DNA of 64,000 bases, taken from Cellvibrio sp. OA-2007 (lineage in GTDB: Bacteria; Pseudomonadota; Gammaproteobacteria; Pseudomonadales; Cellvibrionaceae). The translations under genes were made by a program, and so were the position numbers. The notes below the pieces were generated by a model. That model had not been told where the DNA came from, did not search any database, and was given only the letters and a program-made list of their open reading frames with translations. This document shows, in pieces, positions 1,096 through 35,278 of this stretch; the stretch's first letter is position 1, and each line of letters begins with the position of its first letter. The stretch lies in assembly GCF_000953825.1 (NCBI RefSeq), contig NZ_BBUL01000084.1, positions 1 to 64,000 of the forward strand, written 5' to 3'.

Positions 1096-2430
1096 GATCG
1101 TCCCATTGCAGGTGAAATGATTGTCATCAACAACCTGGAAGATGCATCGGGGGATCAGCTTGATTTGCGGGTGCTATTTTCGGATGAGGAAACCGCAAGC
1201 AGCGATTTGGTGTTCTCTGTAGTGAGTAATTCTAATCCCGGCTTGGTGATTAGCGCAGTCATTGATCCTGCTACCGGCTTGATACAGTTTCATTATGGGG
1301 CAAATCAATTTGGCACTAGTGATCTGGTTATCAGGGCGCAAGATGAGCAGGGTGCTTGGGTTGAGTCTGTGGTGCGCATCAATATTGCCTCTGTAAATGA
1401 TGTGCCTGTGTCTGAGGCAATTGCGGATATTACTGTCTACGCAGGAAGTCTGCCGCTCTCAACGGATTTGCAAACGGTATTCAGTGATATCGAAGATGGG
1501 TATTTATTGAGTTGGTCGGTCGTAGAAAATACCAATCAGTTGGTCGTAACAGCAATTCAGATTGACCCTGTTACCGGAATCATGACCTTGGTGTTTGCTG
1601 ATCAGGCATTGGGGGTATCAGTCGTTACTTTGCGAGCTCAAGACAGTGATGGTGCCTGGGTGGAAACCAGCTTTCAAGTAACTGTGATTGAACCAGAGGT
1701 GGTTTCTCCCAGGCCGCCGGTTGAGCCTCCCGTCACTCCACCAGTTGCTCCACCGATCAATCCGCCATCAGTTGAGCGTCCTCTAAATCCTCCGACTGAA
1801 TTGCCGGTAGTTCCCCCGATAGTGCCGCCAGAAACAATTATAACGCCGCCGCTGCCGAACGAAAATGAGGGGGAAAATACAGGAGATGTTGGTGAGCTAG
1901 GAGAGGGTATTTACTCCTCTGATGGAAGTGCGATATCAAGCGGAAATGATGATGTAAACAATACTGATCAAAATGATAAGTCCAGTCGTGACATTGAGCG
2001 AGCAAACAAAATGCAGCTCGATAATAATCTTTTGCTCAGCTCGCTTACGGCATCTCCGAGACTCGCTGCCCTGATTGCTCCTGATTCTGGTTTTACACCT
2101 TGGGATGCTGCAGATTTTGACAACGAGATTCATCGATTGCGCGCACAAATGGATGAGGCTTTGGAGGAGGAGCAAAATCGTAGAGCTGTAGTCTCAGGGT
2201 TAATTTTTTCAATTACTACCGGCATATTGGTCTGGTCTTTGAGAGCAAGTAGCTTGCTGTTGATGCTGGTATCTTTGTTACCTTTATGGCGAGGTTTCGA
2301 CCCTCTACCCGTTCTTGACGAGGTAAACAAAAAGAAAAAGGAACTTCTGCGGCAGCGTAAAGATAAAAAACAAGAAGATCGTGAAGTTCGTGAAGTGGGG
2401 TATTTGTTTGACCACAATAAGGGAGGGTAG
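1..2430 (+). CDS. Ig/cadherin-like repeat surface protein, 3' part
   Basis: The frame is open from base 1, so the true start lies left of the window. The visible part holds one partial and three complete copies of a roughly 100-residue putative-Ig (He_PIG/dystroglycan-cadherin type) repeat, recognisable by IPDQNATEDxxFNFQF, GGGALPxWLSFDAATRTFSG and SIxVIASDGNGG. Two more diverged cadherin-like modules (up to about base 1690) follow. Then comes a proline-rich stalk (about 1705 to 1860), an acidic linker, a short coiled region, a transmembrane stretch (about 2190 to 2280) and a Lys/Arg-rich tail. The layout suggests a large surface or secreted protein anchored near its C terminus by a membrane segment with a cytoplasmic basic tail. 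The role is unknown; adhesion or carbohydrate binding is typical of the repeat family. No terminator is obvious downstream. Confidence 0.8.
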   Translation, partial: LAGGGALPAWLSFDAVTRTFSGTPANADVGSISIDVIANDGNGGIVTDTFDLTVYAGINNLPTVANAIPDQNATEDSVFNFQFSSNTFADVDAGDTLIYSAQLAGGGALPVWLSFDAATRTFSGMPTNGDVSSISIDVIASDGNGGTVTDTFVISVANTNDAPTVANAIPDQNATEDAAFNFQFASNTFSDVDVGDTLTYSVQLEGGGALPAWLIFNAATRTFSGTPTNGDVGTVSIEVIANDGNGGIVTDRFDIVISEAIGNINQAPVLVNPIPSQSATEDVAFNFQFAANTFIDADVGDTLTYRVQLVGGGALPPWLSFDAATRTFSGVPTNNDVDTLSIEVVASDGQATSSAQFQLNVLVVNDRPIAGEMIVINNLEDASGDQLDLRVLFSDEETASSDLVFSVVSNSNPGLVISAVIDPATGLIQFHYGANQFGTSDLVIRAQDEQGAWVESVVRINIASVNDVPVSEAIADITVYAGSLPLSTDLQTVFSDIEDGYLLSWSVVENTNQLVVTAIQIDPVTGIMTLVFADQALGVSVVTLRAQDSDGAWVETSFQVTVIEPEVVSPRPPVEPPVTPPVAPPINPPSVERPLNPPTELPVVPPIVPPETIITPPLPNENEGENTGDVGELGEGIYSSDGSAISSGNDDVNNTDQNDKSSRDIERANKMQLDNNLLLSSLTASPRLAALIAPDSGFTPWDAADFDNEIHRLRAQMDEALEEEQNRRAVVSGLIFSITTGILVWSLRASSLLLMLVSLLPLWRGFDPLPVLDEVNKKKKELLRQRKDKKQEDREVREVGYLFDHNKGG

Positions 2431-3331
2431 ATCGCTGCTGAGTAGGTCTCTTTAGTGATAATGAAATGAGAATTGACTCCTTTTTAATCGCATTTCAAGC
2501 AATAGTGTGGTTTCAGTGATCTGATTGGTTTAGCAAGTACGAAATTGCTGCTCAACATCGTAAGCGTCCTATCAACCCCACCTAGCCTTGCCCTAAGCGT
2601 ACATGTAACACGAAACTATGGCCAATATCCTACAAGCTTTTCAGTCTCTACCCACCCTTTTCAGCAAGCAAAATATTTAAAATAAGTAGCGAAAGGACGC
2701 TAACCGAAACAGGATGCAACGGTTAAAGGGATTGGTTTAAGGATGAAGCTGCAAAATGGACGACATTAGGGATCAGGCATGATGCCGAGCTGATTGGGAG
2801 ATCACTTACCCGCGCAGGAAGTAAAGGGGCTAGCTGGATGTGATGCCTCTTTTTTTGACGTTTGGATTCTATTTTTCTAATCCGCATTTAATTTCACCGT
2901 CCACGGTATAAGATCTTCTAGCCGATCATCCTCAGTGTGTTTGGGAATTTCTGTCAGCAAATGCTCAGTATACTTCACCGGATTTAGATTATTCCCTCTT
3001 GCGCTGGGTTCGTACATTTGGTGACGTGGTTTTTATCGTCGGTGCTTTAGCTGTGAGCTGGCAGGTTGTGTAGGGTTTATTTTCCTCATCAAGAGGTGGT
3101 GTGTTAACAATCGATCCAGCTAGGACGCCTGAAAAAAAGAAACTGTGTGCTGCGGTAATTGTGGCGGTAAATAAGGTGTAACAGTTAAGTCTTAAGCCGG
3201 ATATTGAGTTTAATGTCCGGTTTAATTTAAGAGCACCTCTGAAAATAAGATTTTAAATTCATAAGTTGAACTCTTTTCGAATATTTTTGGGGTGAGTACT
3301 ACGGCAATTGGTAAGCATGCTCGCTACAAGA
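2431..3331. other. Gene-poor stretch with transposon debris
   Basis: About 900 bp without an intact gene. Apart from the IS66-type 3' remnant at 2877..3011 I recognise nothing. There are only short open stretches, for example one ending at the taa near 3181, with no start, ribosome site or recognisable domain. The composition and the broken transposase suggest decayed mobile DNA. Confidence 0.6.
2877..3011 (-). pseudogene. IS66-family transposase, C-terminal remnant
   Basis: Reading the minus strand gives 44 codons ending in a stop, containing NGLNP-like ARGNNLNPVKYTEHLL followed by LTEIPKHTEDDRLEDLIPW. That is the pattern of the extreme C terminus of IS66 transposases (a helix ending ...LLPW). 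Homology stops abruptly at about 3011, where the rest of the transposase should begin, so this is a truncated relic. No inverted repeat or target duplication is visible around it. The assignment rests on remembered family pattern. Confidence 0.6.
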
Positions 3332-3592
3332 TCAATCTTTTCGCTCGGCTTCTTTAATCGACTTAATGATCACTTCAATCCCTTCGTGAGGATCTGCTCC
3401 TATCGCGTGGCAGTACCTCACGAATTCTACAAGCTCTATCTTCTTTCTATCTTGCTCCATTTTCCCAACACTGGTCCAATGGGCTCCAATCATAGGGGCT
3501 AGGTCACGCAAAGTTAACGAAGTTGCTGCTCGCTTTTGCTTCAGCCAAAAGCGAAGCTTTGCATAATGAGGTGAGTACGAAGATGTTTTCAT
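3332..3592 (-). CDS. XRE-family HTH regulator
   Basis: An 86-residue protein with a Cro/C1-type helix-turn-helix at about residues 26 to 52 (TLRDLAPMIGAHWTSVGKME) and a charged C-terminal tail. It is a single-domain DNA-binding protein of the size of phage or island repressors. It is divergent from the winged-helix/helicase pair that starts at 3656. The 63-bp gap contains two copies of a 19-bp imperfect palindrome, one directly abutting this gene's start codon. That arrangement suggests it represses itself and the divergent pair. Family assignment is confident; the regulated targets are inference. Confidence 0.8.
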   Translation of the reverse strand: MKTSSYSPHYAKLRFWLKQKRAATSLTLRDLAPMIGAHWTSVGKMEQDRKKIELVEFVRYCHAIGADPHEGIEVIIKSIKEAERKD

Positions 3593-3638
3593 TGTAGCGA
3601 TATTAGATACAAGCTAGAATGTAGCGAAATTCACTACA
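3593..3638. promoter_or_regulatory. Two-copy palindromic operator
   Basis: TGTAGCGATATTAGATACA (3593..3611) and TGTAGCGAAATTCACTACA (3620..3638) are 19-bp imperfect palindromes that share their left half TGTAGCGA. Their starts are 27 bp apart. They fill the space between two divergent genes, the usual site for an autoregulating XRE repressor. Confidence 0.65.
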
Positions 3639-3655
3639 ATTCAAATAAGCATCAA

Positions 3656-4174
3656 ATGAAGCCAAAACACCTAAAGCATGAAGTATTTAGTGCTTTCCAA
3701 GAACTGATAGGAAGCCGTTTTACGGTTGCTCAAGCCGTATCTGTTTACATGGCAAGCCCATTTTGCTCTCACTCGGACGTAAAACCCGCACGGCAATTTG
3801 TCTACAGAAACATGAAGCGGCTTATTCAAGCTGGTGAACTGGAAAAAATCGGTCCTGATGGCGGTTGGCAAAAATACCGTTTTACTGAGAGCTTTAACGC
3901 AAGGTTAACTGCAGATGTATCTCTCATTTCAGGTCAACCGATAGTGCAAGAGGCATCAAATATAAGTGCGAATCTTATCGAAAGGCTAAATCACCAAAAG
4001 TTGGAATTACTTACCACAATGGGTGAAGCTGAAGAGTACGACGCGATTTTCAAAGAATTACCAGAGATGCGCGGGCAAATTCAATCGCTTTATAACGATT
4101 CGCGAGATAGGTGTTCCAAATTATTGGGGAAAGTTAAAGCGCTCGAAAATCTCATCTCATTAAATTCAAGATAA
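3656..4174 (+). CDS. Putative winged-helix protein with coiled coil
   Basis: A 172-residue protein that I cannot place in a named family. Residues about 5 to 75 look like a winged helix or DNA-binding fold (FTVAQAVSVYM, then ARQFVYRNMKRLIQAGELEKI and a Gly-rich turn GPDGGWQKYRF). Residues about 105 to 165 are helical and charged, consistent with a coiled coil. It ends 4 nt before the helicase gene, so the two are almost certainly co-transcribed and probably act together, with this protein as the specificity or loading partner. The start follows a poor ribosome site (catcaa), but the codon sits just after the operators. Confidence 0.6.
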   Translation: MKPKHLKHEVFSAFQELIGSRFTVAQAVSVYMASPFCSHSDVKPARQFVYRNMKRLIQAGELEKIGPDGGWQKYRFTESFNARLTADVSLISGQPIVQEASNISANLIERLNHQKLELLTTMGEAEEYDAIFKELPEMRGQIQSLYNDSRDRCSKLLGKVKALENLISLNSR

Positions 4175-4178
4175 AAAT

Positions 4179-5585
4179 ATGCAATTAAGACGCTGGCAAT
4201 CCGAATGTATTTCAAAGGCTCTGCATAAGTTCTCAGTAATGGGTAATCACTTTCTCTGCTTGGCTACGCCAGGTGCTGGCAAAACAGTTATGGCGTCAGT
4301 CTTGGCTACCAAACTGCTCGAACATAATCAGATAGATCTCATTCTGTGCTTTTCACCTTCGGTCACAGTATCAAGTGACTTTGAGCAGGCACTTGCAGAT
4401 CACACCAATGCCCGAATGGACGGACTGTTAGGCTCTAAAGGGCGTTCACTCACCTACCAAGCAATGCTTTATTTAGATGATGAGTTCTGGAAGCTATTTG
4501 ATACGAACAGGATATTTGTGATATTTGATGAAATTCATCACTGTGCTGGCGATGGATTAGGTAATGCGAATGCATGGGGACAAAAAATTATTCAGCATAT
4601 TCAAGGTCGTGCTACTTATTCTTTAGCACTTACGGGTACCCCTTGGCGTTCTGATCAAATTCCTATTGCACTTTCGAGTTATTGCCAACAACAAAAAATT
4701 CATTGCGATTATGTATATGGTTTGACGCAGGCAGTTGCGGACAACGTGTGTAGAAGCCCAAAAATTACGCTGATTGACAATGATAAAGTTTGGATTAAGC
4801 ACAATAATGAAGTATTTAAGTTTTCATGCTTTGGCGAGTTACTAAAAAAATCCAAATGCTCCTATCAACAATTGATAGAAAACGAAGCTCTCATTTCCTA
4901 CTTCATCGATAAGTCGTCAAAAAAATTATCCGCAATTAGAAAACAGCATTCAAGCGCAGGTGGTCTTATTGTTGCTGCCTCGGTAGAGCATGCCAATAAA
5001 ATTTCCGAGATATTGTATCGTCGGACCGGAGATCAAGCGTATATAGCAACCTATAGAGAAGAAGATCCACTAAACATAATCAATAGGTTCAAATTTAATT
5101 CTGAAAAATGGATTATTTCCGTTGGGATGATCAGCGAGGGAACCAATATACCTAGGTTGCGAGTGTGTTGTCATTTAACCCGAGTTAAAACGGAGCTACA
5201 TTTTCGACAAGTTTTGGGTAGGATATTGCGAAGCAGTACTGAAGCAAATGAAGAAGGTTTTCTCTATATGCCTGCTGAACCCAATCTTCTCGAATATGCC
5301 ACTCGTGTTGCACAAGAAATACCAGATGGTGTTGCTATTAAATTTGACTCTATGTCGAAGGCGCAAGATCGTGAATGTGATGCTTTAATTCTGAAGGGCG
5401 ACGATAATCTCGCCACGAGTGTAATCCTGGCGGTCGATTGCAGCTCTACTGACGATTCAGATCTGGAATTAGATCTTAGTCATCAAGCAGGGCTAACTTC
5501 ACTCGCTAGATCATATGAATCTACAGTTAATATCTTTGGCAGGTTTAAACAAGAACTCCTGTCGCTACCGCTTACTGCTTGTTGA
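4179..5585 (+). CDS. SF2 DEAD/DEAH-type helicase
   Basis: A 468-residue superfamily 2 helicase. Visible motifs are Walker A TPGAGKT (30 to 36), motif II DEIH (117 to 120), motif III LTGTPWR (151 to 157), motif V SVGMISEGTNIP (314 to 325) and motif VI QVLGRILR (344 to 351). This is the ResIII plus Helicase_C layout without any obvious nuclease domain. It is an ATP-driven DNA or RNA translocase. Being downstream of a small DNA-binding protein and under an XRE repressor, on accessory DNA, it is a candidate element-maintenance or anti-phage gene. That role is inference; the helicase call is firm. Confidence 0.88.
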   Translation: MQLRRWQSECISKALHKFSVMGNHFLCLATPGAGKTVMASVLATKLLEHNQIDLILCFSPSVTVSSDFEQALADHTNARMDGLLGSKGRSLTYQAMLYLDDEFWKLFDTNRIFVIFDEIHHCAGDGLGNANAWGQKIIQHIQGRATYSLALTGTPWRSDQIPIALSSYCQQQKIHCDYVYGLTQAVADNVCRSPKITLIDNDKVWIKHNNEVFKFSCFGELLKKSKCSYQQLIENEALISYFIDKSSKKLSAIRKQHSSAGGLIVAASVEHANKISEILYRRTGDQAYIATYREEDPLNIINRFKFNSEKWIISVGMISEGTNIPRLRVCCHLTRVKTELHFRQVLGRILRSSTEANEEGFLYMPAEPNLLEYATRVAQEIPDGVAIKFDSMSKAQDRECDALILKGDDNLATSVILAVDCSSTDDSDLELDLSHQAGLTSLARSYESTVNIFGRFKQELLSLPLTAC

Positions 5586-5868
5586 TGCTGGCGCAATGCT
5601 CAAATATATCGTTCCGACAATTTTTTATTTTTCTTTCGATCTAGCCTGCGAAACTAATTTGTAGTGCATGAAAGAGGCTTAGCTGAAAAATCAAATAACT
5701 GCGTGTTGATTTATGTATGAAATTGGTCGTTTTTTGCGTTTAAGAATGACCCAGGATAATAGGTGTTAGTAATCATCCTAACTGGTTTTTTCAATATTTT
5801 AAGTTGGTCAATATTCAATGCCAAAATGGGTCCGCATTGAATGAAAATCAATAACTCTATCTTTAAAA

Positions 5869-6066
5869 GTGGAAACTATGTCTGATATTAATGACGAATT
5901 TTATGCTCTGTTAATACGTATATCCTCTCCAAAAACCCGCAGAGCAGGTGACGCTTTTTTCTCAGCTGATCCTCTGGACTTGTCCATTACGTATTCACCA
6001 GACAATTTTGATAGCTTCGATGTTCAGCCTGATGGCAAGTCGACTGACATCATCGGTAAGAAATGA
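5869..6066 (+). CDS. Small hypothetical protein
   Basis: About 62 to 65 residues. The frame can begin at GTG 5869 or ATG 5878 (MSDINDEFYALL...). No domain, signal peptide or membrane segment is visible. The sequence is acidic and rich in Asp/Ser with a basic end (GKK). I do not recognise it, and it could be a chance frame or the remnant of a larger gene. Confidence 0.3.
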   Translation: METMSDINDEFYALLIRISSPKTRRAGDAFFSADPLDLSITYSPDNFDSFDVQPDGKSTDIIGKK

Positions 6067-6495
6067 TGATCCCTTTATGCAGTTATTCTTTCGAACCGAG
6101 CAATAATCATCCTTTTTTTCTTGCTGGCTTGTGGAATTTTTCCTCATATTAAAACATCATCATTAAGATACAGTAGTCATTTTCTTTAGAATCATCGAGA
6201 TGCGAATTCGCACCAATTTTTTCACACAATCGTAAACCATTTACCCACTTTATTGCATCAATTTACCTAATTGGAGCGGTAAGTTGGCATGAGGTTGCGT
6301 TGATAAACTGGATAACAGGTGCGGCATTCAAGTGTAGCTGAACAGCAAATATATCTCTGAAGAAGAAAATGCATAAAGGATTGCTCAAAGCCTTGCTGAA
6401 CAGCTCTGTATTACGACGAAGTTATTTTCAGGCTGAATACTATTTAGGCGCCCTCACTCTGGGGGGATCAATCTAGTTCGGAATGAAAAAATTCT
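6067..6495. other. Intergenic stretch, nothing recognised
   Basis: About 430 bp downstream of the substitute srkA. I see no gene, RNA or clear terminator. I looked for the CACGTTAAGGG repeat that occurs at the other end of the recombinase operon and did not find it here. Confidence 0.5.
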
Positions 6496-7488
6496 CTAAT
6501 AATTTCCTGAAGACCTTAAGAGTGCTGGCTCTTGAAGGTTCGCAAACTGTTCTCGCAATTGAAGGACATGTTCTGCCCAGTAGCGCTCGGTATTAAACCA
6601 TGTAAACGTTGATGGGAATGCCGGATCAGTCCAACGTCTCGCAATCCAGGCGGCGTAATTCAGCATACGAAGAGTTCTGAGGGGCTCTATCAAACATAGT
6701 TCTGAATCGTTGAAGTCATGGAACATCTCATAGCCTTCTAACAGTGCATCGAGCTGCGTAGTTCGATCTTGGCGATCACCACTCAACAACATCCACAAGT
6801 CTTGTACAGCAGGTCCCATGCGGCAATCATCGAAGTCAACAAATACACCGCGGTCTTCTCGCCACAAAATGTTGCCCGGGTGGCAATCAGCATGAATACG
6901 AATTGGTGAATAAGCACACTCACTGAATCGCTGTTCTATTATTTTAATAATATCTTTAGTCAGTGATTCGTAGGCCGGAAGGAGGCTCGGTGGAATAAAA
7001 TTATTACTCAGGAGAAATTCCCGACTATCGATACCATAACTCTTGATATCAAGCAGTGACCGATGACTGAAGGGCTTTATCGATCCAATTGCGTGTAATC
7101 TTCCAAGCGAGCGACCAAGTAATTCTAAAGTGTCTAAGTTATCTAGCTCTGGCGCATGCCCTCCAGCTCGTGGAAATAATGCGAATGTAAATTCTCCGTC
7201 CCGATGAGCACTTACTCCGCTTTCATGTACTAACGGTGGAACAATTGGCCACTCTGCTACTGCAAGCTCTTTACAAAAGTCATGCTCCTCACTTACTTGC
7301 TCAAACGACCACCGGGACGGTCTATAGAATTTTGCGATGAGGGGCGCAGAGTCGGCAATTCCGATTTGAAATACACGATTTTCGTAAGAATTCAATGCAT
7401 TTAAACGACCATCACATTGATATCCCAAGCACTCAACGGCATCAAGAATTCGTTCTGGTGTTAAGGTGCTGTAGGGATGGTCTGACAT
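6496..7488 (-). CDS. srkA: Stress response kinase A (SrkA/YihE)
   Basis: 330 residues, full length for SrkA, a cytoplasmic eukaryote-like Ser/Thr kinase that counters stress-induced death. It has the family's LNSYENRVFQ near residue 32, Lys53 in IAKFYRP, the catalytic loop HADCHPGNILW (199 to 209) and the metal site DFDDCRMGPAVQDLW (218 on). It starts 12 nt after the last recombinase-operon gene and is surely part of that transcript. GC of its first 100 nt is about 42 percent, against about 55 percent for the srkA 5' fragment at 13521..13658. It therefore looks imported as a replacement copy for the interrupted host gene. Confidence 0.92.
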   Translation of the reverse strand: MSDHPYSTLTPERILDAVECLGYQCDGRLNALNSYENRVFQIGIADSAPLIAKFYRPSRWSFEQVSEEHDFCKELAVAEWPIVPPLVHESGVSAHRDGEFTFALFPRAGGHAPELDNLDTLELLGRSLGRLHAIGSIKPFSHRSLLDIKSYGIDSREFLLSNNFIPPSLLPAYESLTKDIIKIIEQRFSECAYSPIRIHADCHPGNILWREDRGVFVDFDDCRMGPAVQDLWMLLSGDRQDRTTQLDALLEGYEMFHDFNDSELCLIEPLRTLRMLNYAAWIARRWTDPAFPSTFTWFNTERYWAEHVLQLREQFANLQEPALLRSSGNY

Positions 7489-7500
7489 ATTTTGAACTCA

Positions 7501-7926
7501 TTAGTAAGGTACATCGGTGCTTTTGGGATCCACTCGCACATCAGTCACTATGCCATACTGAGGAACCTCTCCGCCGAGTTTACGGATAACTTTTGCCATC
7601 TCTGCATTAAGATATAGCAGAGACATGTAGCGGCTGCGGGCGATATCCAGATCACGTTTGAGTTGCTCTATCTCAGCAGACTGATTGGGATTGTTCTGAG
7701 TTCGCGTTTTCTTGCGGGGTGGGGGCTGCTCGCTTGATGCAGATTCAATTTCTGCAATAAGTTGTTCAAATCCTGGGCGATTGCGAATGGTGCCACGTTT
7801 CCGTCCTGCTTCAAGTGCGACTTGATCCTTATTAATTGGGGAACCCTTGGGGACACGAACCGGCGCATTTTTTTTGAGCCTTTCTAGTGCGGCAAAATAT
7901 TCCATGATGGTACTGGTTGTCTTCAT
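7501..7926 (-). CDS. Small recombinase-operon accessory protein
   Basis: A 141-residue basic protein. The N-terminal half (KGSPINKDQVALEAGRKRGTIRNR) resembles a short helix-turn-helix. The middle is a Pro/Arg/Lys-rich linker and the C-terminal half is a predicted coiled coil (SAEIEQLKRDLDIARSRYMSLLYLN). Its start overlaps the end of the preceding recombinase by 4 nt. Small coiled-coil or HTH helpers of this size follow tyrosine recombinases in Tn554-type (TnpC) and gamma-mobile-trio (GmtX) modules, so a role as a strand-exchange or directionality helper is likely. Which family it belongs to needs a profile search. Confidence 0.6.
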   Translation of the reverse strand: MKTTSTIMEYFAALERLKKNAPVRVPKGSPINKDQVALEAGRKRGTIRNRPGFEQLIAEIESASSEQPPPRKKTRTQNNPNQSAEIEQLKRDLDIARSRYMSLLYLNAEMAKVIRKLGGEVPQYGIVTDVRVDPKSTDVPY

Positions 7927-10022
7927 TGTTTAGTTGTCGCCGGTTTCAGGTATGTAGAGTTTATAAAATCAATCTCTTGGTTAATAAGTTGGTACGGGCG
8001 GCTCTTCGGTGATATCGAAGCCAAGTCAAAGCGAAGGCTTTCGATGTAAGTCTCAAGTTTTTCTGGTTTTAAGATTGCGTGCTTACAACCACTCGTACAA
8101 GGTAAGACCAAATCGATCGCAAAATGAGGGCAGCTGCCTTTCAGAACACAGCCACCTACCGGAGTTTCTTTGAAACTGAATTTACCTTGTTTGACAGCCA
8201 TTTGGGTTTCTTTTTGGCTGTGGAAGATTCTAGGTAGGCTATTTCTGTCCTTTGCGCGCTGAATATCTGCTCCAATAGGTCCGCACAGTTGCTGTTCAGA
8301 TCGAATTACTTGTTCATGAAAGCGAACGCTCGTGTTGAATGCAACAGCATCACGGAACGACATCAGTACACTGCCGCCATCAATGGGCCTGCCACTTTCA
8401 TCAATGAGAAAGTTTTGGGCATAGCTTGAGTTCTCTGAGTAAAGCGCCGTCATCACTTCAGATAGGTGCTTAAATTGCGTTTTTAGTGTTGGTAAAGATA
8501 CCATTCCAGAGCGGCTTGCATAGACGGCTACTGAGCGTCGGAATTGATGTGACGATAGTGGCCAAAGTTTTCCCACTGCAAAATTGGGGTTTTCATCCCA
8601 TGCTCGAAATGCATCGAACACTCGCAATTCCTCCAAATCTTCCGCTTTGATCGTCAAGTCAAGCGATAGACAAGCGGCACGCCAAGATTTTGTATCGAAT
8701 AGGGTGGTCGCTATCGGTAGCGAATAATGAACGTTAGGCGTAATTGTATTGAAGCCTTTTCCTATAAAAAGGGGGGCATTGTTTGGTAATTCATCTCCAA
8801 TTTGATGACTTCTAAACCAGGTGAGGGTGGAAAGTTGCTGCGCGATGCTGGCGGCATAAAGCCCCTCCTTCGAGGTTGCCCACACCAGCGGGCGACTGTA
8901 GTGCCCTTTCTGTGTAAACTTTTGGAGGTAAGACACAAACACCGGTAAATTTCCTAGCCCCTTTGTAGTAGAGTTCACTATCGGCCTAAAAGGCATAACT
9001 TGTACCTCGGATATTCGCATACCTGAGAATGCGTGGATCAGGAATATACAGAGCACTTGCAAGTGTGTGATGTGCGAATCAATCGAATTTAAGTTGTTTA
9101 GGCCCACCTGTTTTGCGTAGGCCGTAAGGCCAAAGCGCTCAAGCGTCTCGGCGGTGTTAAGGCTATGCTCCTTGACCTCAGGCCATGTCTGGAATGTGCA
9201 ATTTGGGTATAGCCTCATCACTCGCTTCAGATTTTCCGCGTAGCTACGGCTTTCATTCGAACACAGACTCGGGTCTGCGTTCATTGCTTTGATATAGGCT
9301 TCTAGGCGCGGCAAATAGGGCTCAGCAGCTTTCAATTGCTCTTGCGCACCGCCTATTATCTTGCCTAACAACCGTGTGGGAATCAGAGGGTGATGCTCTT
9401 TCTGATCTTCCCGTGTGCGGGCTTTACTTTGAATGAGTGTCAATATATCGGTTAAATTTGCCTCCGGGACAAGTCGAGGCACGTCGCACTCAATAGTATT
9501 TAGTTGTTGCCAGAATGCAATGTCTCGTAGTAGCCCCATTAATGCAGTTGGCAAGCTAAACCCGTCGTCTACATTCGAGATCGAGCTGCGCAATGCCACT
9601 TGAAACTGTAAGCTCGTATCGGCCTCAGCGAGTGATAGGTTAAGCCCATGGGCTAATTTGGCAATCGCTCGCAGAATCGATAGTGATTGCCGTACATGAA
9701 CCATTCCCCGCGAGCGCCCTGCGTTTGTGGCTGTTTCAAAAATGTTAAGCCAACAAACAGTTTTTATCTCTTCTGTGAGCCTGCGCGCCAGCGCGTCCAT
9801 CGGTCCTTGAGTCTTCGCATCCCACCAGCTCACAAAATTGAAGGTGTTATTGGCACCATAAACGCGTAGATCCCATTTGTTGTCTTTGAAATAACTCAGT
9901 ACGTCACCCTTCTTATTGCGTGCAATCACATAGTTTGGGTCAATACCTAATTTTGATACATGGTTGATCGTGTCAGGTGCTTGATGCGAGTCAGGGTTGG
10001 CACAATGGATCTGAAACGCCAT
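7923..10022 (-). CDS. Large tyrosine recombinase, third of trio
   Basis: 699 residues. The catalytic signature of tyrosine recombinases is visible: Arg336 in FSGMRISEV, His492 and Arg495 in SSHQFRRSV, His519, and Tyr528 nine residues later in a spacing typical of the family. The long N-terminal half is probably the DNA-binding arm. A Cys/His cluster (CVLKGSCPHF... PCTSGCKH, about 625 to 648) near the C terminus looks zinc-binding. It begins 1 nt after the preceding gene. The order is a recombinase trio plus small helper, like the gamma-mobile-trio (GMT) modules of genomic islands. The GMT label is from memory and unverified. Confidence 0.78.
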   Translation of the reverse strand: MAFQIHCANPDSHQAPDTINHVSKLGIDPNYVIARNKKGDVLSYFKDNKWDLRVYGANNTFNFVSWWDAKTQGPMDALARRLTEEIKTVCWLNIFETATNAGRSRGMVHVRQSLSILRAIAKLAHGLNLSLAEADTSLQFQVALRSSISNVDDGFSLPTALMGLLRDIAFWQQLNTIECDVPRLVPEANLTDILTLIQSKARTREDQKEHHPLIPTRLLGKIIGGAQEQLKAAEPYLPRLEAYIKAMNADPSLCSNESRSYAENLKRVMRLYPNCTFQTWPEVKEHSLNTAETLERFGLTAYAKQVGLNNLNSIDSHITHLQVLCIFLIHAFSGMRISEVQVMPFRPIVNSTTKGLGNLPVFVSYLQKFTQKGHYSRPLVWATSKEGLYAASIAQQLSTLTWFRSHQIGDELPNNAPLFIGKGFNTITPNVHYSLPIATTLFDTKSWRAACLSLDLTIKAEDLEELRVFDAFRAWDENPNFAVGKLWPLSSHQFRRSVAVYASRSGMVSLPTLKTQFKHLSEVMTALYSENSSYAQNFLIDESGRPIDGGSVLMSFRDAVAFNTSVRFHEQVIRSEQQLCGPIGADIQRAKDRNSLPRIFHSQKETQMAVKQGKFSFKETPVGGCVLKGSCPHFAIDLVLPCTSGCKHAILKPEKLETYIESLRFDLASISPKSRPYQLINQEIDFINSTYLKPATTKQ

Positions 10023-10023
10023 A

Positions 10024-11991
10024 TTATGTCCCTTCTATTTCAAGTAGTGCGTTTATTTTGGCTCCCCAATATTGGTCTCGCTCACCGCGCTCAAAGCGTA
10101 TGATTGCATCTTTCACATACAGTGAGATTTCGTCACTCATGTCAGAAAGATCTTCTAGTATCTGTTGGATACGATTCAAATATGGCGCGAATTTTTGGAA
10201 TTGCTCATCGATATTGATTGAGCTGATGCGGCTCTGAGTCTCGATCCAGAGCTTGATGGTTAGCAAGCGTAATATGCTTTCAATGTCGGCATGCAAGCCA
10301 AAGTGCACGCAAAATATACACGTAATAGGGGCGCTACAGCGTGGCTCAATTGCAAGCTCCTCAAAACCCTCGACGCATTTTGGTCCATCCTGTTCCAAGT
10401 CACAGACGCCTGTGAGCGTTATTTCACCATCGCTAATGATTCGTACAGGCTTAATATCCATATGACGCAGTTCCGCAGCCTTTGCTTGTGCTGCAAAGTA
10501 GTCGTTCATTGCTTTTGCTGCTTCTTCATGATTTTTGAAAGCATAGTGCCTTTCAATAGTTCTTGGTGATGCCAATTGCATACTAGAGACCATAGCGATG
10601 TTGCCGCCGGAGGCTTCTAACAGGTTCACTGATTTGTGCTTACGCGCAGCCCGGGTGGCCAGTGCTGGCGCGCGCGCAGGCCAGAGACTTAGCTGCCGCA
10701 TAGCGTTGCCCGATAGTAAACTATAGGGGACTCGGTCAGCGCGGTCAGTAATAAGAAATAATCCCAACTTTGGCGGAGCTTCGATCTGCTGGGTCATCCA
10801 ACCGTGTAACTTGAGATATATTTTCCAAGTAGTTTGAGCGAAGCGAAGATCCACATGTTGTTCTTGTTGCTCAAAGCTAGCGCGCCCTTTGATAGCTCTA
10901 GTCGTTGCTAACCCCACTGCTCTGTCTAATCGAACGTTTTGACAGTCAATACTGACGAGGTGCGCAGCATTGTTCCCGGTCTCCGCCATCAACAGATGCG
11001 CAAAATGGCGCGTGGCATGGTTCGCCAACTCGTGAAGTGTGAATTGACTAAACTTGCGGTTATTTTCCTGTAACCGCTTGAAGCTATCAGGATTGATGGG
11101 CGGGACGCTATGCTCAGCTAGCAGCGCATTAAATGCACTGGCCTTGCCTTCAAATACCCCTTCACGTCGGAAAAAAAAGGGCTGCCAATCAGCGCGACCT
11201 CCCTTCACTCGTGTTGACCAGCCGTTCGCATTGTTTGATATCTGGCTGTAGAAAATCAGGTCCTCGAAACCTAGATCTGCCAATTTGACCACCACTGGTG
11301 GGGCGATGTTATTGAGGACAGCATGAGTGAATGCCTCAAAGTAGCGCTGATGGAGGGCGTAAGCCACTGCATGTTCATCGGCGGTTGTTGCGGGTGCAGG
11401 CAACTCATTCATCCCCATTTTTTTTTGAGGAATTCGTATTGCCCAACTTTGCACCACTTTAGGATCATGTCCGCTGGCCTGACTACAGATATATATCAAT
11501 GCTGATTGCAGGTTTTGAGCCATAGGATAGCCGATCGATATAGCCCTATCACCCACATTAGACAGGCGCAGGCGGTGACGAATATGATCGGTGCAATCTC
11601 GGTAGAGCCCTCGGGCGCCCTCAAGGCTATATAGCTCAGCCGAGCGCTCATGCCGGTCAATCCAATCGAATATGGACTCAATCCAGCAAAAATCGGGAAT
11701 ACCTGAATGACCCTCTAGTAGTCCTTTAATGATCGGTTGGATCAAGGAGGCTCGTTTGGCGCAAAAGCTTAAAGGGTTGACTTTCTTTCGCTCATTGAAG
11801 GATCTAATAGTAGGATCGAGCGATCGACGATCGAGATAGCAGACACGGTATGTTTTTAGATAGCGCATTTTCTTGCCCTGACCTTGATCAATGCAAGTTA
11901 ATTCTGGCCTGAACGTCGGTGCTATATCAAAACTGTTCTTGGGCAGCGTATTCAGTTCGGGTAGGGTGTAAGTGATCGCGCCGTTTGTCAT
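10024..11991 (-). CDS. Degenerate integrase-like protein, second of trio
   Basis: 655 residues with a tyrosine-recombinase-like C-terminal half but altered catalytic positions. The TGxR motif reads TGNN (338 to 341). The HxxR box is represented by TRAARKHK without the His. GHS is replaced by QLAS, while SPRTIERHY keeps a Tyr at 483. It probably binds DNA and assembles with its partners without cutting, although a diverged active enzyme is possible. A Cys-rich patch (CDLEQDGPKC... CSAPITCIFC, about 530 to 561) suggests zinc binding. It overlaps the upstream recombinase by 4 nt. Confidence 0.65.
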   Translation of the reverse strand: MTNGAITYTLPELNTLPKNSFDIAPTFRPELTCIDQGQGKKMRYLKTYRVCYLDRRSLDPTIRSFNERKKVNPLSFCAKRASLIQPIIKGLLEGHSGIPDFCWIESIFDWIDRHERSAELYSLEGARGLYRDCTDHIRHRLRLSNVGDRAISIGYPMAQNLQSALIYICSQASGHDPKVVQSWAIRIPQKKMGMNELPAPATTADEHAVAYALHQRYFEAFTHAVLNNIAPPVVVKLADLGFEDLIFYSQISNNANGWSTRVKGGRADWQPFFFRREGVFEGKASAFNALLAEHSVPPINPDSFKRLQENNRKFSQFTLHELANHATRHFAHLLMAETGNNAAHLVSIDCQNVRLDRAVGLATTRAIKGRASFEQQEQHVDLRFAQTTWKIYLKLHGWMTQQIEAPPKLGLFLITDRADRVPYSLLSGNAMRQLSLWPARAPALATRAARKHKSVNLLEASGGNIAMVSSMQLASPRTIERHYAFKNHEEAAKAMNDYFAAQAKAAELRHMDIKPVRIISDGEITLTGVCDLEQDGPKCVEGFEELAIEPRCSAPITCIFCVHFGLHADIESILRLLTIKLWIETQSRISSINIDEQFQKFAPYLNRIQQILEDLSDMSDEISLYVKDAIIRFERGERDQYWGAKINALLEIEGT

Positions 11992-13502
11992 GTCCGAAGC
12001 TGCTCTATTGTGCGATTGATTCTCTCGTGATGATATGCGCTTGCTTTTCTGACTATTGAGTTGCTCTTATCGTAATTCAGGTAGCTTTGAGTCGTGTTAA
12101 AGTTCGAATGCCCCATACGCTGTTTGAGTTCGTCGCGGATATCCATGGACCCGGAGGCATCTGCGTCTCGAATAAAGTTCATTCCGTATGTTGCCCGAAG
12201 GTCATGGAATCTAAACGTGTTGAAGTCTGGATGATTCACGCGGATATCTTTTATTAAGCGACTTAAGTAGTTTCTCACGGCATTACCCGTTTGGACGGTG
12301 AAAGTAACGCGATCTCGCGCCGAAATACGTTTGCTAAATTGCCCCTCTTGGCGGTCAATAATCTCGGAGGTGCTTGTGTAAAAAGGTGACCCGTTTGAGG
12401 CGAGAAAAACATAGTTCTCGTGGCTCTCTTCATAAAAACTGAGTGCCCGACGGCCCCGACATTCGTCTGATTCAATGTAATCGCGCAGCATTCGAACCAA
12501 CTCAATAGGTACGTGGAGCCGATAGCGCTTTTGATTTTTTGTATCAACTCCAGTGCCATCACCGACTCGAAGAAGCACCTCGCCATTTTTTGGGGATTTC
12601 TTGAGGAGATCGTAGATATCTTTAACTCTGAGTGTACAAACAGTTTGGAGGCGAGCTCCTGTGAAAAGGGTCACAAAGCACATTAATTGGAAAGCTCGAT
12701 TGTTGCTTTTACTGAGCTGTTGAAGGAATAGGTTCTGCTCGTTCTCTGTCAGTGGTCTCAGGGTTCCGCCGTCCGCAATCTCGCCCACGTGGTTACGCTG
12801 TGGTTTGGGAATCTTGAAGTTAGAAGTCTCTACAATTTTCATCATCTGAAGGCCGATCGAATTAACAATCGGGATGCCAACAAAGGAGCTTTTGTAAGCA
12901 CTGTGTTCGATTGCGGATTCCGCTACCAGCTTCCATGCTAAAAGCCCACGATAGAATCCGATTACTGCTTGCATACGAGCTTTAGCTACGCTTAGAGAGA
13001 TCGGCTGGCCGCTCTTCTCACGCAAGAGCCTTTTTAGGTATCTGTAGTAAGCCCAGGTAACCCGCTTCTCTTCTTCGATTGGGAAGTACAGCTCATGAAT
13101 ATCTTTGCCTTCGTTGCGTAAGTGCTCAATCCACCGTAAATACATAATCAGGTGTTTGGCTATCGATCTAAGCGTATCGATAATTGGCGGGGCAAGCTTC
13201 GCCATTTCTGTGAACTTACTCATCAGGTACAGGTTCCCTAAGTCCCAGGGGGTGCCGTCGCCACGAATTAGGACTGGAAAGTTACGAATCACACCGTCTT
13301 CAATCGGTGAAAACTGAAGGGACAGGTCGGTGTATTTCAATCTTGAAAAACGCGCCACTCTTTGATCTCGCTGCGGGTCGAAGGCAATTTGTGCAGGAAC
13401 AAATACATCGATGCAGGAGAGTCGCGCCGTTGAATTTAATGCCTGTTTCGATTTTTTATCGTCTCGCATAAGTGATCTCTTGCAGCAGCTTTGTACATAC
13501 AT
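11988..13502 (-). CDS. Tyrosine recombinase, first of trio
   Basis: 504 residues from ATG 13502. A second ATG at 13469 has a better ribosome site (AAGAGATC upstream) and may be the real start, which would give 493 residues. The catalytic set is complete: Arg284 in TGARLQTV, a basic beta-hairpin near 322 to 328, His433-Arg436 in RFHDLRATYG, His465 in RMGHSNFN and nucleophile Tyr474. It is the first gene of the operon and lies directly behind the broken srkA 5' fragment, so it may be transcribed from the host srkA promoter. It is the likely strand-cutting enzyme of the element. Confidence 0.85.
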   Translation of the reverse strand: MYVQSCCKRSLMRDDKKSKQALNSTARLSCIDVFVPAQIAFDPQRDQRVARFSRLKYTDLSLQFSPIEDGVIRNFPVLIRGDGTPWDLGNLYLMSKFTEMAKLAPPIIDTLRSIAKHLIMYLRWIEHLRNEGKDIHELYFPIEEEKRVTWAYYRYLKRLLREKSGQPISLSVAKARMQAVIGFYRGLLAWKLVAESAIEHSAYKSSFVGIPIVNSIGLQMMKIVETSNFKIPKPQRNHVGEIADGGTLRPLTENEQNLFLQQLSKSNNRAFQLMCFVTLFTGARLQTVCTLRVKDIYDLLKKSPKNGEVLLRVGDGTGVDTKNQKRYRLHVPIELVRMLRDYIESDECRGRRALSFYEESHENYVFLASNGSPFYTSTSEIIDRQEGQFSKRISARDRVTFTVQTGNAVRNYLSRLIKDIRVNHPDFNTFRFHDLRATYGMNFIRDADASGSMDIRDELKQRMGHSNFNTTQSYLNYDKSNSIVRKASAYHHERINRTIEQLRT

Positions 13503-13507
13503 TCAAT

Positions 13508-13546
13508 CACGTTAAGGGGGTTATGTATACATGTGCACGTTAAGGG
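13508..13546 (+). repeat. Element-end direct repeat and palindrome
   Basis: CACGTTAAGGG occurs twice in direct orientation (13508..13518 and 13536..13546), flanking the perfect palindrome ATGTATACAT (13523..13532). The right-hand copy lies inside the broken srkA frame, just past the point where SrkA homology stops. It looks like recombinase arm or core-flanking sites at the end of the inserted element. Confidence 0.55.
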
Positions 13547-13658
13547 TATCGTAGCTGTTGAGGGCAAGAATGCGGGCATCGGTCAGGAAGCCGGTGCTAT
13601 CAATCGCATCCAGCACCATATCGGGCGTGAGAAGTTCATAGGGATGGGACTGGGTCAT
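13521..13658 (-). pseudogene. srkA: Interrupted host srkA, 5' fragment
   Basis: The minus-strand frame from ATG 13658 reads MTQSHPYELLTPDMVLDAID and continues to LALNSYD, matching SrkA N termini (compare MSDHPYSTLTPERILDAVE...ALNSYEN of the intact copy). After Tyr36 the homology ends inside the invariant LNSYENRV motif. The frame then runs on through element-end sequence to a stop at 13521. The DNA is about 55 percent GC, like the flanking core genes. The fragment keeps the start codon and presumably the promoter of the original srkA, pointing into the recombinase operon. Confidence 0.82.
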
Positions 13659-13854
13659 AACCGCTGCTCGCTAAAATGAACGGAGATTGTACCTGCCGCC
13701 AGTCAGTTGCGCTTGGATATGCGCCGGTTCGCGTTTTTACGCCGCTGATGGCGTATAAATTTTGAAGGATTTGGATAAAAATGCTACAAGTTATTATTGT
13801 TATTGAATAATTCATGCGTGATCGCAGTGCAACTTCGTCAAAAACGGAATTCCT

Positions 13855-32791: not shown

Positions 32792-34561
32792 ATGGCGCAG
32801 GTGTTGGATCGGGTATTGGATTTACGCGGCTTGATTCAGGATCTGGTCGCCGATGGGCGCATGAAACAGGTCGATGCCAATATCTTGCTTGGCGCCTCGC
32901 GCACCCGCGAGCAGGCGATCATGCACCCGCTAGCCTATATCGCCACCCAAAATCTGGAAGATGTGCGGCGCCCCGGCAAAAACCTCGATGGCGATACCCT
33001 GACCGAATGGTTGGCGACCAAAGCGCACTTGCCGCTGTTTCATATTGATGCGATGAAAATTGATGTCGCCAAGTGTACCGAGGTGATGAGTTACGCCTTC
33101 GCCAAGCGTCACGGCATTTTGTGCGTCAAAGTTGAGGCAGATCATGTGGTTATCGCCTGTACCCAGCCGTTTATGGAAGGGTGGGAGCCACAGGTAGAGC
33201 ATGTCGCGCGGCGCAAGGTTAAGCGCGTGGTGGCTAACCCTGCCGATATAGAGCGGTTTATGGTGGAGTTTTACACTCTCGCGCGCTCGGTGTCTGGTGC
33301 CAGCGGTGCAACTGCAGCGTCTGCGATTACCAACTTTGAGCAGCTGGTGGAGTTGGGCAGCGCCACCGACCCTGATGCCAATGACCAGCACATAGTCAAA
33401 ATCGTAGATTGGTTGCTGCAATACGCCTACGACCAGCGCGCCTCCGATATTCATATAGAACCGCGCCGGGAAGTCGGGCGCATCCGCTTCCGTATCGACG
33501 GGGTATTGCATTACGTCTACGAATTGCCTGCTAATGTCGCCACTGCCGTCACCAGTCGCTTCAAGGTCTTGGCGCGCATGGATATAGCCGAAAAACGCAA
33601 GCCGCAAGATGGCCGGATCAAAACCCGCCGCAGCGATGGCAGCGAAATCGAACTGCGTATGTCCACCCTGCCCACCGCCTTTGGCGAAAAACTGGTGATG
33701 CGGATTTTTGACCCGGAAGTGTTGCAGCGCAGTTTTGCCGATTTAGGCTTGGTGGGTGACGACTATGCGCGCTGGTATTCCATGCTCTCGCGCCCGAACG
33801 GGATCTTGCTGGTGACCGGCCCGACTGGCTCGGGTAAAACCACCACGCTCTACTCATCGCTGCGCCAGGTCGCGACCGATGAAGTGAACGTCAGCACTAT
33901 TGAAGATCCCATCGAAATGGTGGAAGAGCGCTTCAACCAAACCCAGGTGCATCACAAAATCGGGCTGGATTTTGCCGCCGGTATCCGCAGCCTGATGCGG
34001 CAAGACCCAGACATCATCATGGTGGGTGAAATCCGCGATCTGGAAACCGCGCAGATGGCAGTCCAAGCCGCACTCACCGGCCACTTGGTGCTCTCCACCG
34101 TGCACACCAACGATGCTCCCTCAACTGTCGCGCGGATGCTCGATTTGGGCATTCCGTCTTACCTTATCAACGCCACCATGCTCGGTGTGATGGCGCAGCG
34201 TTTGGTGCGCACCCTCTGCCCACACTGCAAAGAAGAGGGCGAAATCACCCAGGCACACTGGCAGGAATTGGTCGCCCCTTGGAAAGTAAATCTGCCCGCC
34301 AGAGTCTATCGCCCGGTGGGCTGTTTGGAATGCCGCAATACCGGCTACCTCGGGCGTCAGGGTTTGTATGAAATCCTCATGCTCTCCGACACCCTCAAAG
34401 AAAAAGTCACTAGCGATTGCAACCTGCAGGAATTGCGCAAGCTGGCGATGAAAGAAGGCATGCGCACCCTGCGTTTATCCGGCGCGCAAAAAGTCGCCGC
34501 CGGTTTGACCACCATGGAAGAAGTCTTGCGTGTCGCACCACCGCCGGAGAAGGTGGGGTGA
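32792..34561 (+). CDS. GspE/PilB-type secretion ATPase, orphan
   Basis: 589 residues from ATG 32792 (AGGA 8 nt upstream). Order: N-terminal MshEN-like domain (to about 165), then the GspE core with Walker A GPTGSGKTTT, ASP box (STIEDPIE), Walker B/His box (VGEIRDLETAQMAVQAALTGHLVLSTVHTN) and a tetracysteine zinc motif CPHC...CLEC. It is a hexameric ATPase that powers type IV pilus or type II secretion extension. No inner-membrane platform, pilin or secretin gene is adjacent, so its machinery lies elsewhere. Many genomes carry such a detached PulE-like gene. Confidence 0.9.
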   Translation: MAQVLDRVLDLRGLIQDLVADGRMKQVDANILLGASRTREQAIMHPLAYIATQNLEDVRRPGKNLDGDTLTEWLATKAHLPLFHIDAMKIDVAKCTEVMSYAFAKRHGILCVKVEADHVVIACTQPFMEGWEPQVEHVARRKVKRVVANPADIERFMVEFYTLARSVSGASGATAASAITNFEQLVELGSATDPDANDQHIVKIVDWLLQYAYDQRASDIHIEPRREVGRIRFRIDGVLHYVYELPANVATAVTSRFKVLARMDIAEKRKPQDGRIKTRRSDGSEIELRMSTLPTAFGEKLVMRIFDPEVLQRSFADLGLVGDDYARWYSMLSRPNGILLVTGPTGSGKTTTLYSSLRQVATDEVNVSTIEDPIEMVEERFNQTQVHHKIGLDFAAGIRSLMRQDPDIIMVGEIRDLETAQMAVQAALTGHLVLSTVHTNDAPSTVARMLDLGIPSYLINATMLGVMAQRLVRTLCPHCKEEGEITQAHWQELVAPWKVNLPARVYRPVGCLECRNTGYLGRQGLYEILMLSDTLKEKVTSDCNLQELRKLAMKEGMRTLRLSGAQKVAAGLTTMEEVLRVAPPPEKVG

Positions 34562-34663
34562 TGTTGGCGGCTTATTGACGGTACTGGCGGCTAACTGTCG
34601 TAGCTTTCGATTAGCCAAATCCACTAGGCTCTGTTGGTTCTTACTATTACCGGAGCCCAACTT

Positions 34664-35278
34664 ATGGACAGTTTTGCACAAGAGATGAAAATATCCTCCA
34701 CCAAGATCCGTCACCTGCGAACTCAGCTCGGTTGGTCGCAAGAGCAGCTCGCACTCGCCTCCGGCTTGAGTTTGCGTACCATCCAGCGGGTTGAGGCAGA
34801 AGGTAAAGCATCGCGCGAAACACGTGTTTGTTTGGCGGCCACATTGAGCGTGGAGTTGGCAGAGTTATTTGATGAGTCAAATTCAGATGCAGAAATGCTG
34901 CCGGTGCCATCTGTCTTCCGCTACAAACTCGCACTGGCCGTGGCAGGCTTGGGGTTAGTGCCAATACTCCTCAATATTGCAGGATTTATTGCGAGTAACG
35001 TTTTGCTGTCAGCTTTGCATATGATGGTTATTGCGCTCTCTTTGTACGGTAGTTTTGGTTGGTACTTTACCGGTCAGCCGCGACCTGCGTCGCGCGGCAA
35101 GCGTTATGTGCAGGTCACTTTTATTGCAGGGGCGATGTTTTTTGCGTTTGCTTTTTTTGGGCAAGACAATTCAAGCCCGGCTGCAATTGGCGTTGCGGCT
35201 CAGATTACAGCTTTAGCATTAGGAGTTTATTTTTTGCTGGATTACTGGCTATCGCGGCGGACGGTAAAAGTAGAGTGA
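34664..35278 (+). CDS. XRE regulator fused to membrane domain
   Basis: 204 residues from ATG 34664 (GGAG site). An N-terminal Cro/C1 helix-turn-helix (LGWSQEQLALASGLSLRTIQRVEAEGKAS, about 20 to 48) is followed by four hydrophobic segments (about 82 to 200). This makes it a membrane-tethered DNA-binding protein. Such one-component designs sense membrane or redox state, but the signal is unknown. It is followed by a strong terminator and stands alone. Confidence 0.85.
   Translation: MDSFAQEMKISSTKIRHLRTQLGWSQEQLALASGLSLRTIQRVEAEGKASRETRVCLAATLSVELAELFDESNSDAEMLPVPSVFRYKLALAVAGLGLVPILLNIAGFIASNVLLSALHMMVIALSLYGSFGWYFTGQPRPASRGKRYVQVTFIAGAMFFAFAFFGQDNSSPAAIGVAAQITALALGVYFLLDYWLSRRTVKVE

Follow-up and report, generated by a model that had tools for sequence, protein, structure and literature searches.

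Genes at the split srkA locus

The window analysed here is the first 64,000 nucleotides of contig NZ_BBUL01000084.1 of Cellvibrio sp. OA-2007 (contig C14 of genome G000), and it contains one end of an island with recombinase genes that splits the stress-kinase gene srkA. On the reverse strand, the 5′ stub of the native srkA (36 codons and 2 nt, 13549..13658) is cut between 13549 and 13548, directly after LNSYE of the motif LNSYE|NRV, in agreement with the break within this motif seen in the original prediction, and the reading frame of the stub continues past the cut to a stop at 13521. The native 3′ part, which had been expected outside the window, was found as an orphaned tail on a separate contig, C5 (G000:C5:8723-9607, the native tail lying from 8728 on). 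Since the window begins with the first base of C14, the other boundary of the element could not fall inside it.

Open reading frames (ORFs) of 504, 655, 699 and 141 amino acids, all on the same strand as the stub, span 13502-7501. The first encodes a ginA-like tyrosine recombinase (11988..13469) with a Pfam Phage_integrase match (6.3e-10) and the R, HxxR and Y boxes in invariant columns; its longest ORF runs from 13502 and the ATG common to its relatives is at 13469. The second, ginB-like gene (10024..11991) encodes a large recombinase-related protein without clear R/HxxR boxes in the usual place, where a pattern search and inspection by eye found TGNN for TGxR and, at box II, no HxxR. The third, ginC-like gene (7923..10022) encodes another large protein related to recombinases, in which SGMR and HQFR boxes are present and which has a PHROG integrase match (E 0.008); a PDB search with it gave no useful match. 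The fourth encodes a ginD-like small protein (7501..7926), 67–80% identical among the non-identical srkA elements compared and 41% identical to that of an element in ygjP. Of the four-gene tyrosine-recombinase operon proposed earlier, the four same-strand genes stand; a Pfam integrase match at the E 0.001 threshold was obtained for the first gene only.

Twelve nt past ginD, again on the reverse strand, lies a complete srkA of 330 amino acids (6496..7488), here called the substitute. Its product scores 457.8 bits against NCBIfam PRK11768 (cut-off 194), can be aligned along its length with YihE of E. coli (1ZYL) and is 57% identical to the native 3′ part. At 45.3% G+C the gene is AT-richer than the stub region (54.2%), as had been noted, and than the native tail (58.4%).

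Target site and element ends

Comparison of six left with six right junctions places a 6-bp core, CTACGA, at 13549..13554 (reverse strand) in the S-Y-E codons of the target. The left element end, TACCCTTAACG (13538..13548, reverse strand), has an inverted partner, CGTTAAGGTTA, at the right end (contig C5, 8711-8721). Read along srkA, all six left junctions have [CT]TA[CT]GA followed by TACCC or CACCC, and the right junctions have the inverted motif, six variable bases and then the native RAAYCG; core and right flank together restore the native codons. The variable bases are GTCAGA in G000 and G027, TGATGA, ATACAA and CAGAGC elsewhere, and CTACGA in a genome of the order sample, G585. These last resemble the srkA core, yet the core of G585 itself is CTATGA; on one reading of the sequences this copy would have come from the srkA of an earlier host. 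The serine codon is TCT in the element copies read versus mostly AGC or AGT in natives. We do not take this to mean that the substitute's site was recoded to protect it from the element, since four natives also use TCT or TCC.

The left element end also holds two copies of CCCTTAACGTG spaced 28 bp (window 13546-13508), possibly the binding sites of the recombinases.

The same insertion in other genomes

Using the element SrkA as query, we surveyed 37 genomes (the window's own, 20 others of the same genus and 16 more). Fifteen of the 20 congeners have one uninterrupted full-length srkA, as predicted for relatives lacking the element; three have srkA split at the same codon, and two are incomplete drafts with only broken or partial matches (in G023 two matches in one open frame, in the 77% complete G026 a piece only). 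The three split cases, G018, G022 (Cellvibrio sp. 79) and G027, each have a stub (residues 3–37), a full copy and a tail from residue 29–36, and their srkA pieces give element spans of ~45 kb, ~53 kb and ~101 kb, respectively. The full element SrkA is 95%, 90% and 100% identical to that of the window, and genes A–D are 75/66/64/79% (G018) and 74/61/62/80% (G022) identical. Thalassobium NORP79 (G159, a metagenome-assembled genome, MAG) has the same split and an srkA of the element (73%) that adjoins the tail at the far end; in the sixth case, G585, the element's own srkA (70%) adjoins the tail on another contig. The proposal that the element targets srkA, and that its operon would recur at split srkA genes, is thus upheld by six elements at the same codon, although such counts are not counts of independent events, G000 and G027 holding one element.

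A complete srkA is present in 6/6 of these elements, directly after ginD with a gap of 11–12 nt in G000, G018, G022 and G027, and ~180 bp before the orphaned tail in G159 and G585. A second full-length SrkA was found in none of the 33 other genomes of the survey, where second matches were weak or fragmentary, and two MAGs (one named Oleibacter) with a 63% GinA at another site gave one srkA match each.

Mobility, ancestry and selection

G000 and G027 are two Cellvibrio species whose element DNA is identical at 7,050 of 7,050, 5,301 of 5,301 and 8,713 of 8,715 bases (99.98–100%), with flanks that are 76.7 and 77.4% identical. A near-identical element between diverged flanks indicates that the island moves. 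In a SrkA tree of 46 rows, including five distinct element copies and six orphaned tails, the element copies form one clade with the SrkA of G153 (support 100/100) and each of the six tails groups with host srkAs, which rules out the complete srkA at 6496 as the ancestral locus. That the stub is an old decayed gene is likewise ruled out; the tail is open and conserved, with a ratio of nonsynonymous to synonymous substitution rates (dN/dS) like that of intact genes. For the element srkAs dN/dS is 0.061–0.096 (three pairs, a fourth being saturated), pointing to purifying selection on the substitute.

The srkA of G153 (L055, G153:C27, 9752-10744) is a lone element-type gene (69%) that stands in the native place, with no element, between a modC-like gene and cysE (both named by eye); the srkA of its congener G612 is only 51% like it. 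Possibly it is a substitute remaining after loss of the element.

Other split targets

Genomes with GinA numbered 24 of 390 in the order sample, own genome included, and a further 3 of 369 in the class-wide sample, and a scan of genome contigs gave 15 loci. On viral contigs none of 25 pattern matches to close GinA relatives was confirmed, and every one of 126 plasmid records was below 60% identity to GinA. Our element survey comprises 35 elements, most viewed only in part, with target names assigned after inspection (the symporter, flotillin and yjbQ stubs by eye). In eleven of the 35, the gene that is split has a complete homologue within the element: srkA in six, epmC in three, ygjP and topB in one each. 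In the ygjP element (G019) the stub runs to VVHEL and the orphan, beginning AHF, lies ~23 kb further; the stub has no Pfam match of its own and is 72% identical to the substitute. In the topB element (G684) the stub runs to GDPDR and the substitute lies 8 nt past gene 4, the orphan being 90.6% and the stub 76% identical to it. Stub, substitute and orphan of epmC are all present in G888 and G841. For G685 we found substitute and orphan, with no stub within the 2.5 kb viewed, and between ginD and the orphan noted only the substitute and a 61-amino-acid ORF. The EpmC substitute of G888 is 63% identical to that of G841 and 62% to that of G685, and each of the three is 36–41% identical to the orphan of its own genome.

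Some of these loci show further features. A third piece of topB (residues 535–629, 75%) lies ~6.5 kb past the orphan in G684 (L141-L142, oriented 34457-34741). In G685 (L134, G685:C1, ~1400-4300 after the ginA match) ginB is interrupted by short ORFs in a manner that looks like a transposase insertion; with ginB broken, this small copy of the epmC element may be immobile. A complete yjbQ lies directly past ginD in G655 (L123, G655:C17, 5445-5894 relative to the ginA match); the target of this element was not recognised, and other elements insert into yjbQ at its 3′ end.

Relation to GInts, SEs and tRNA-gene islands

GInts, as described by Bardaji et al. 2017 (PMC5385486), have a four-gene operon with a small fourth protein at one end, cargo directly after it and an A+T-rich far end; their insertion site is fixed, the repeats there are short and imperfect and the cuts are 6 nt apart, and they carry varied cargo from related bacteria. 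The srkA element agrees in having four same-strand genes, three of recombinase type and one small, only gene 1 with a strong integrase match and genes 2–4 matching relatives gene by gene, cargo from the ginD end (srkA 12 nt on) and a short A+T-rich far end (last 300 bp ~38% G+C). It also shares site-specific insertion, short imperfect repeats and, as the six left and six right junctions suggest, a 6-nt staggered exchange. Unlike the GInts in the portions of that account consulted, it supplies a complete substitute of the split target; there, target function is ascribed to the end position of the insertion or to an outward promoter.

SEs, as described by Idola et al. 2023 (PMC10214605), have the gene order intA-tfp-intB-srap with a non-catalytic protein second, terminal inverted repeats and a 6-bp spacer. 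The srkA element resembles them in its imperfect inverted terminal repeats, 6-bp spacer and a second protein without clear catalytic boxes, but its similarity to SE-Pda04Ya311 is weak (blastp, gene 1 2e-9; gene 2, a possible Tfp homologue, 0.004; gene 3 9e-16; gene 4, in the place of Srap, none below 0.05). The topB element of G684, by contrast, is SE-like by blastp to SE-Pda04Ya311. In a blastp comparison of ten elements with one another and with the pAQU1 reference SE, the genes paired A–A to D–D; only the topB element of G684 and the element of G878 are close to that SE, the srkA element being among those that are not. In PMC5385486 and PMC10214605, catalytic boxes are assigned to GinA and GinB, with the first R missing in GinC. 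The R and HxxR boxes of the srkA island are in genes 1 and 3, unlike those of published GInts, and we therefore call it GInt-like, within a GInt/SE superfamily.

The original prediction knew of no described element with this design. The recombinase operon is in fact of a described kind (GInt/SE), and no substitute for a split target was found described in the consulted portions of PMC5385486, PMC10214605, PMC10121019 and PMC5704250, nor did the literature searches list a paper with one; other papers may describe one. Islands in tRNA genes also restore the gene they split, and in those of PMC4383910 (Islander) the island sequence regenerates the small RNA gene at the junction, unlike the srkA island, which supplies, away from the cut, an entire protein gene that is diverged and has an ancestry of its own.

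Proposed role of the second srkA

We propose, with a probability of about 85%, that a mobile GInt-like island splits the native srkA at a fixed site and carries a complete substitute that keeps srkA intact. As read from the sequences compared, the anatomy, the fixed site, transfer between species, the separate ancestry of the substitute and purifying selection on it all speak for this. The site recognised by the recombinases would have its 6-bp core within the codons for S-Y-E-N-R, an invariant SrkA motif, and insertion of the island at this site would leave the native gene as a head of 36 codons and a tail of ~290. The island would also bring an srkA of its own, which is complete and distantly related and in four of the six cases forms the fifth gene of the recombinase operon, so that the recipient cell would keep an intact srkA and the attachment site could stay in a highly conserved coding motif. 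Because its frame is intact and under selection, the substitute would be expected to restore SrkA activity. The host's srkA promoter may drive it along with ginABCD, which is plausible since reverse-transcription PCR on a GInt (PMC5385486) showed transcription entering from outside in the direction of ginA and probably reaching the cargo, and since the gene order fits. Avoiding the cost of insertion would presumably be the reason why it is kept.

Several observations weigh against this proposal. Thirteen of the 35 elements have a recognised target and no substitute (yjbQ near its 3′ end in four, comM and MATE in two each, umuC, umuD, the symporter, flotillin and M48 in one each), so that a substitute is not a rule of the family, although most of the 13 were viewed only partly and one of the yjbQ elements is without sequence beyond gin; the sequence of G323 ends after the gin genes. 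No target was recognised in a further ten. The hsdM element (G747) is ambiguous, as the stub and the orphan-like piece that flank its hsdM are only 28 and 33% identical to it; hsdM-type genes are common cargo. The SrkA of G153 falls inside the element clade though no element is present at its srkA. Intact native srkAs have a lower dN/dS (0.013–0.055, five pairs) than the element copies, and orphaned tails compared with natives give 0.018–0.042 (eight pairs, G585 being saturated), with no sign of relaxed selection; this fits a recent insertion and also some residual use of the tails. The placement of the boxes in genes 1 and 3 departs from that in GInts. Finally, dS is 0.31–0.93 between element srkAs and 1.4–2.7 between gin genes (where computable, and near saturation). 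On these values the gene and the operon do not simply share one history, and elements seem to have traded srkA more recently than their operons diverged.

This more recent sharing of srkA would suit the view that the second gene is plain cargo, picked up at random and with no connection to the target, as would the varied cargo from related bacteria reported for GInts (PMC5385486) and the lack of a matching gene in most elements with other recognised targets. We consider this very unlikely. All six srkA elements have srkA, at two different positions, the ygjP, topB and epmC elements carry the gene that matches their target, no second full-length SrkA appeared in the 33 other genomes, and the two Oleibacter-type MAGs, with a 63% GinA at another site, have one srkA match each. 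That the element srkA serves as a decoy, or as another landing site for elements that arrive, is very unlikely in our view; the core TTACGA is kept in the element copies read, but such conservation is expected anyway because the residues are invariant in natives, purifying selection extends over the whole gene and not the site alone, and none of the six element copies is interrupted. Expression of the truncated tail from an internal start by an outward promoter, as proposed for a GInt in an ABC-transporter gene, accords with the outward transcription reported by Bardaji et al. (PMC5385486) and with the open, conserved tails, but is the most improbable explanation: the first 35 residues, LNSYE among them, are missing from the tail, which stands at the opposite end of the element from gin, and the second srkA is left unexplained.

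Gene replacement as a possible wider strategy

The substitute seen at srkA may reflect a common strategy of GInt/SE-type elements, a reading to which we give slightly better than even odds. Such an element would hit a housekeeping gene at its most conserved codons, inactivate it and bring a complete substitute with an evolution of its own, thereby binding the host to the element; this substitute may outlast the element as the only copy, as possibly in G153. The motifs cut are SrkA LNSYE|NRV, TopB GDPDR|EGQ, YgjP HEL|AHF and EpmC LHE|..HW. Synthetic home-and-rescue gene drives are engineered homing systems that likewise combine insertion into a conserved gene with a substitute copy, the present case being a natural bacterial recombinase element. 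A spare gene would be a simple answer to how an island can address the most conserved coding motifs of the chromosome, and since deletion would remove the only whole copy, the element should resist loss by this route. Host genes would thereby be swapped for foreign ones even though the newcomer is not itself selected for. Some housekeeping genes that puzzlingly occur in a second or foreign copy could be accounted for in this way. The same idea predicts substitutes for M48 (G161, a MAG) and flotillin (G162); none was found in those two genomes, where G161 has two distant M48 matches at 33–36%.

Further cargo

Cargo continues from the substitute to the contig start (1..6495), with a RadD-like helicase (4179-5585), a helix-turn-helix protein (3332-3592) and a repeat protein (1-2430), and window 1100-6400 is 100% identical to the G027 element. 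A scan for promoters and terminators returned sites no more numerous than in shuffles. The RadD-like helicase, assigned by eye, recurs at differing places in the srkA elements of G018, G159 and G585. The repeat protein has many repeated matches in G027 and is probably behind the assembly break at the contig start. In the window's own genome, a remnant of a second ginA lies at the start of another contig (G000:C36:9-359).
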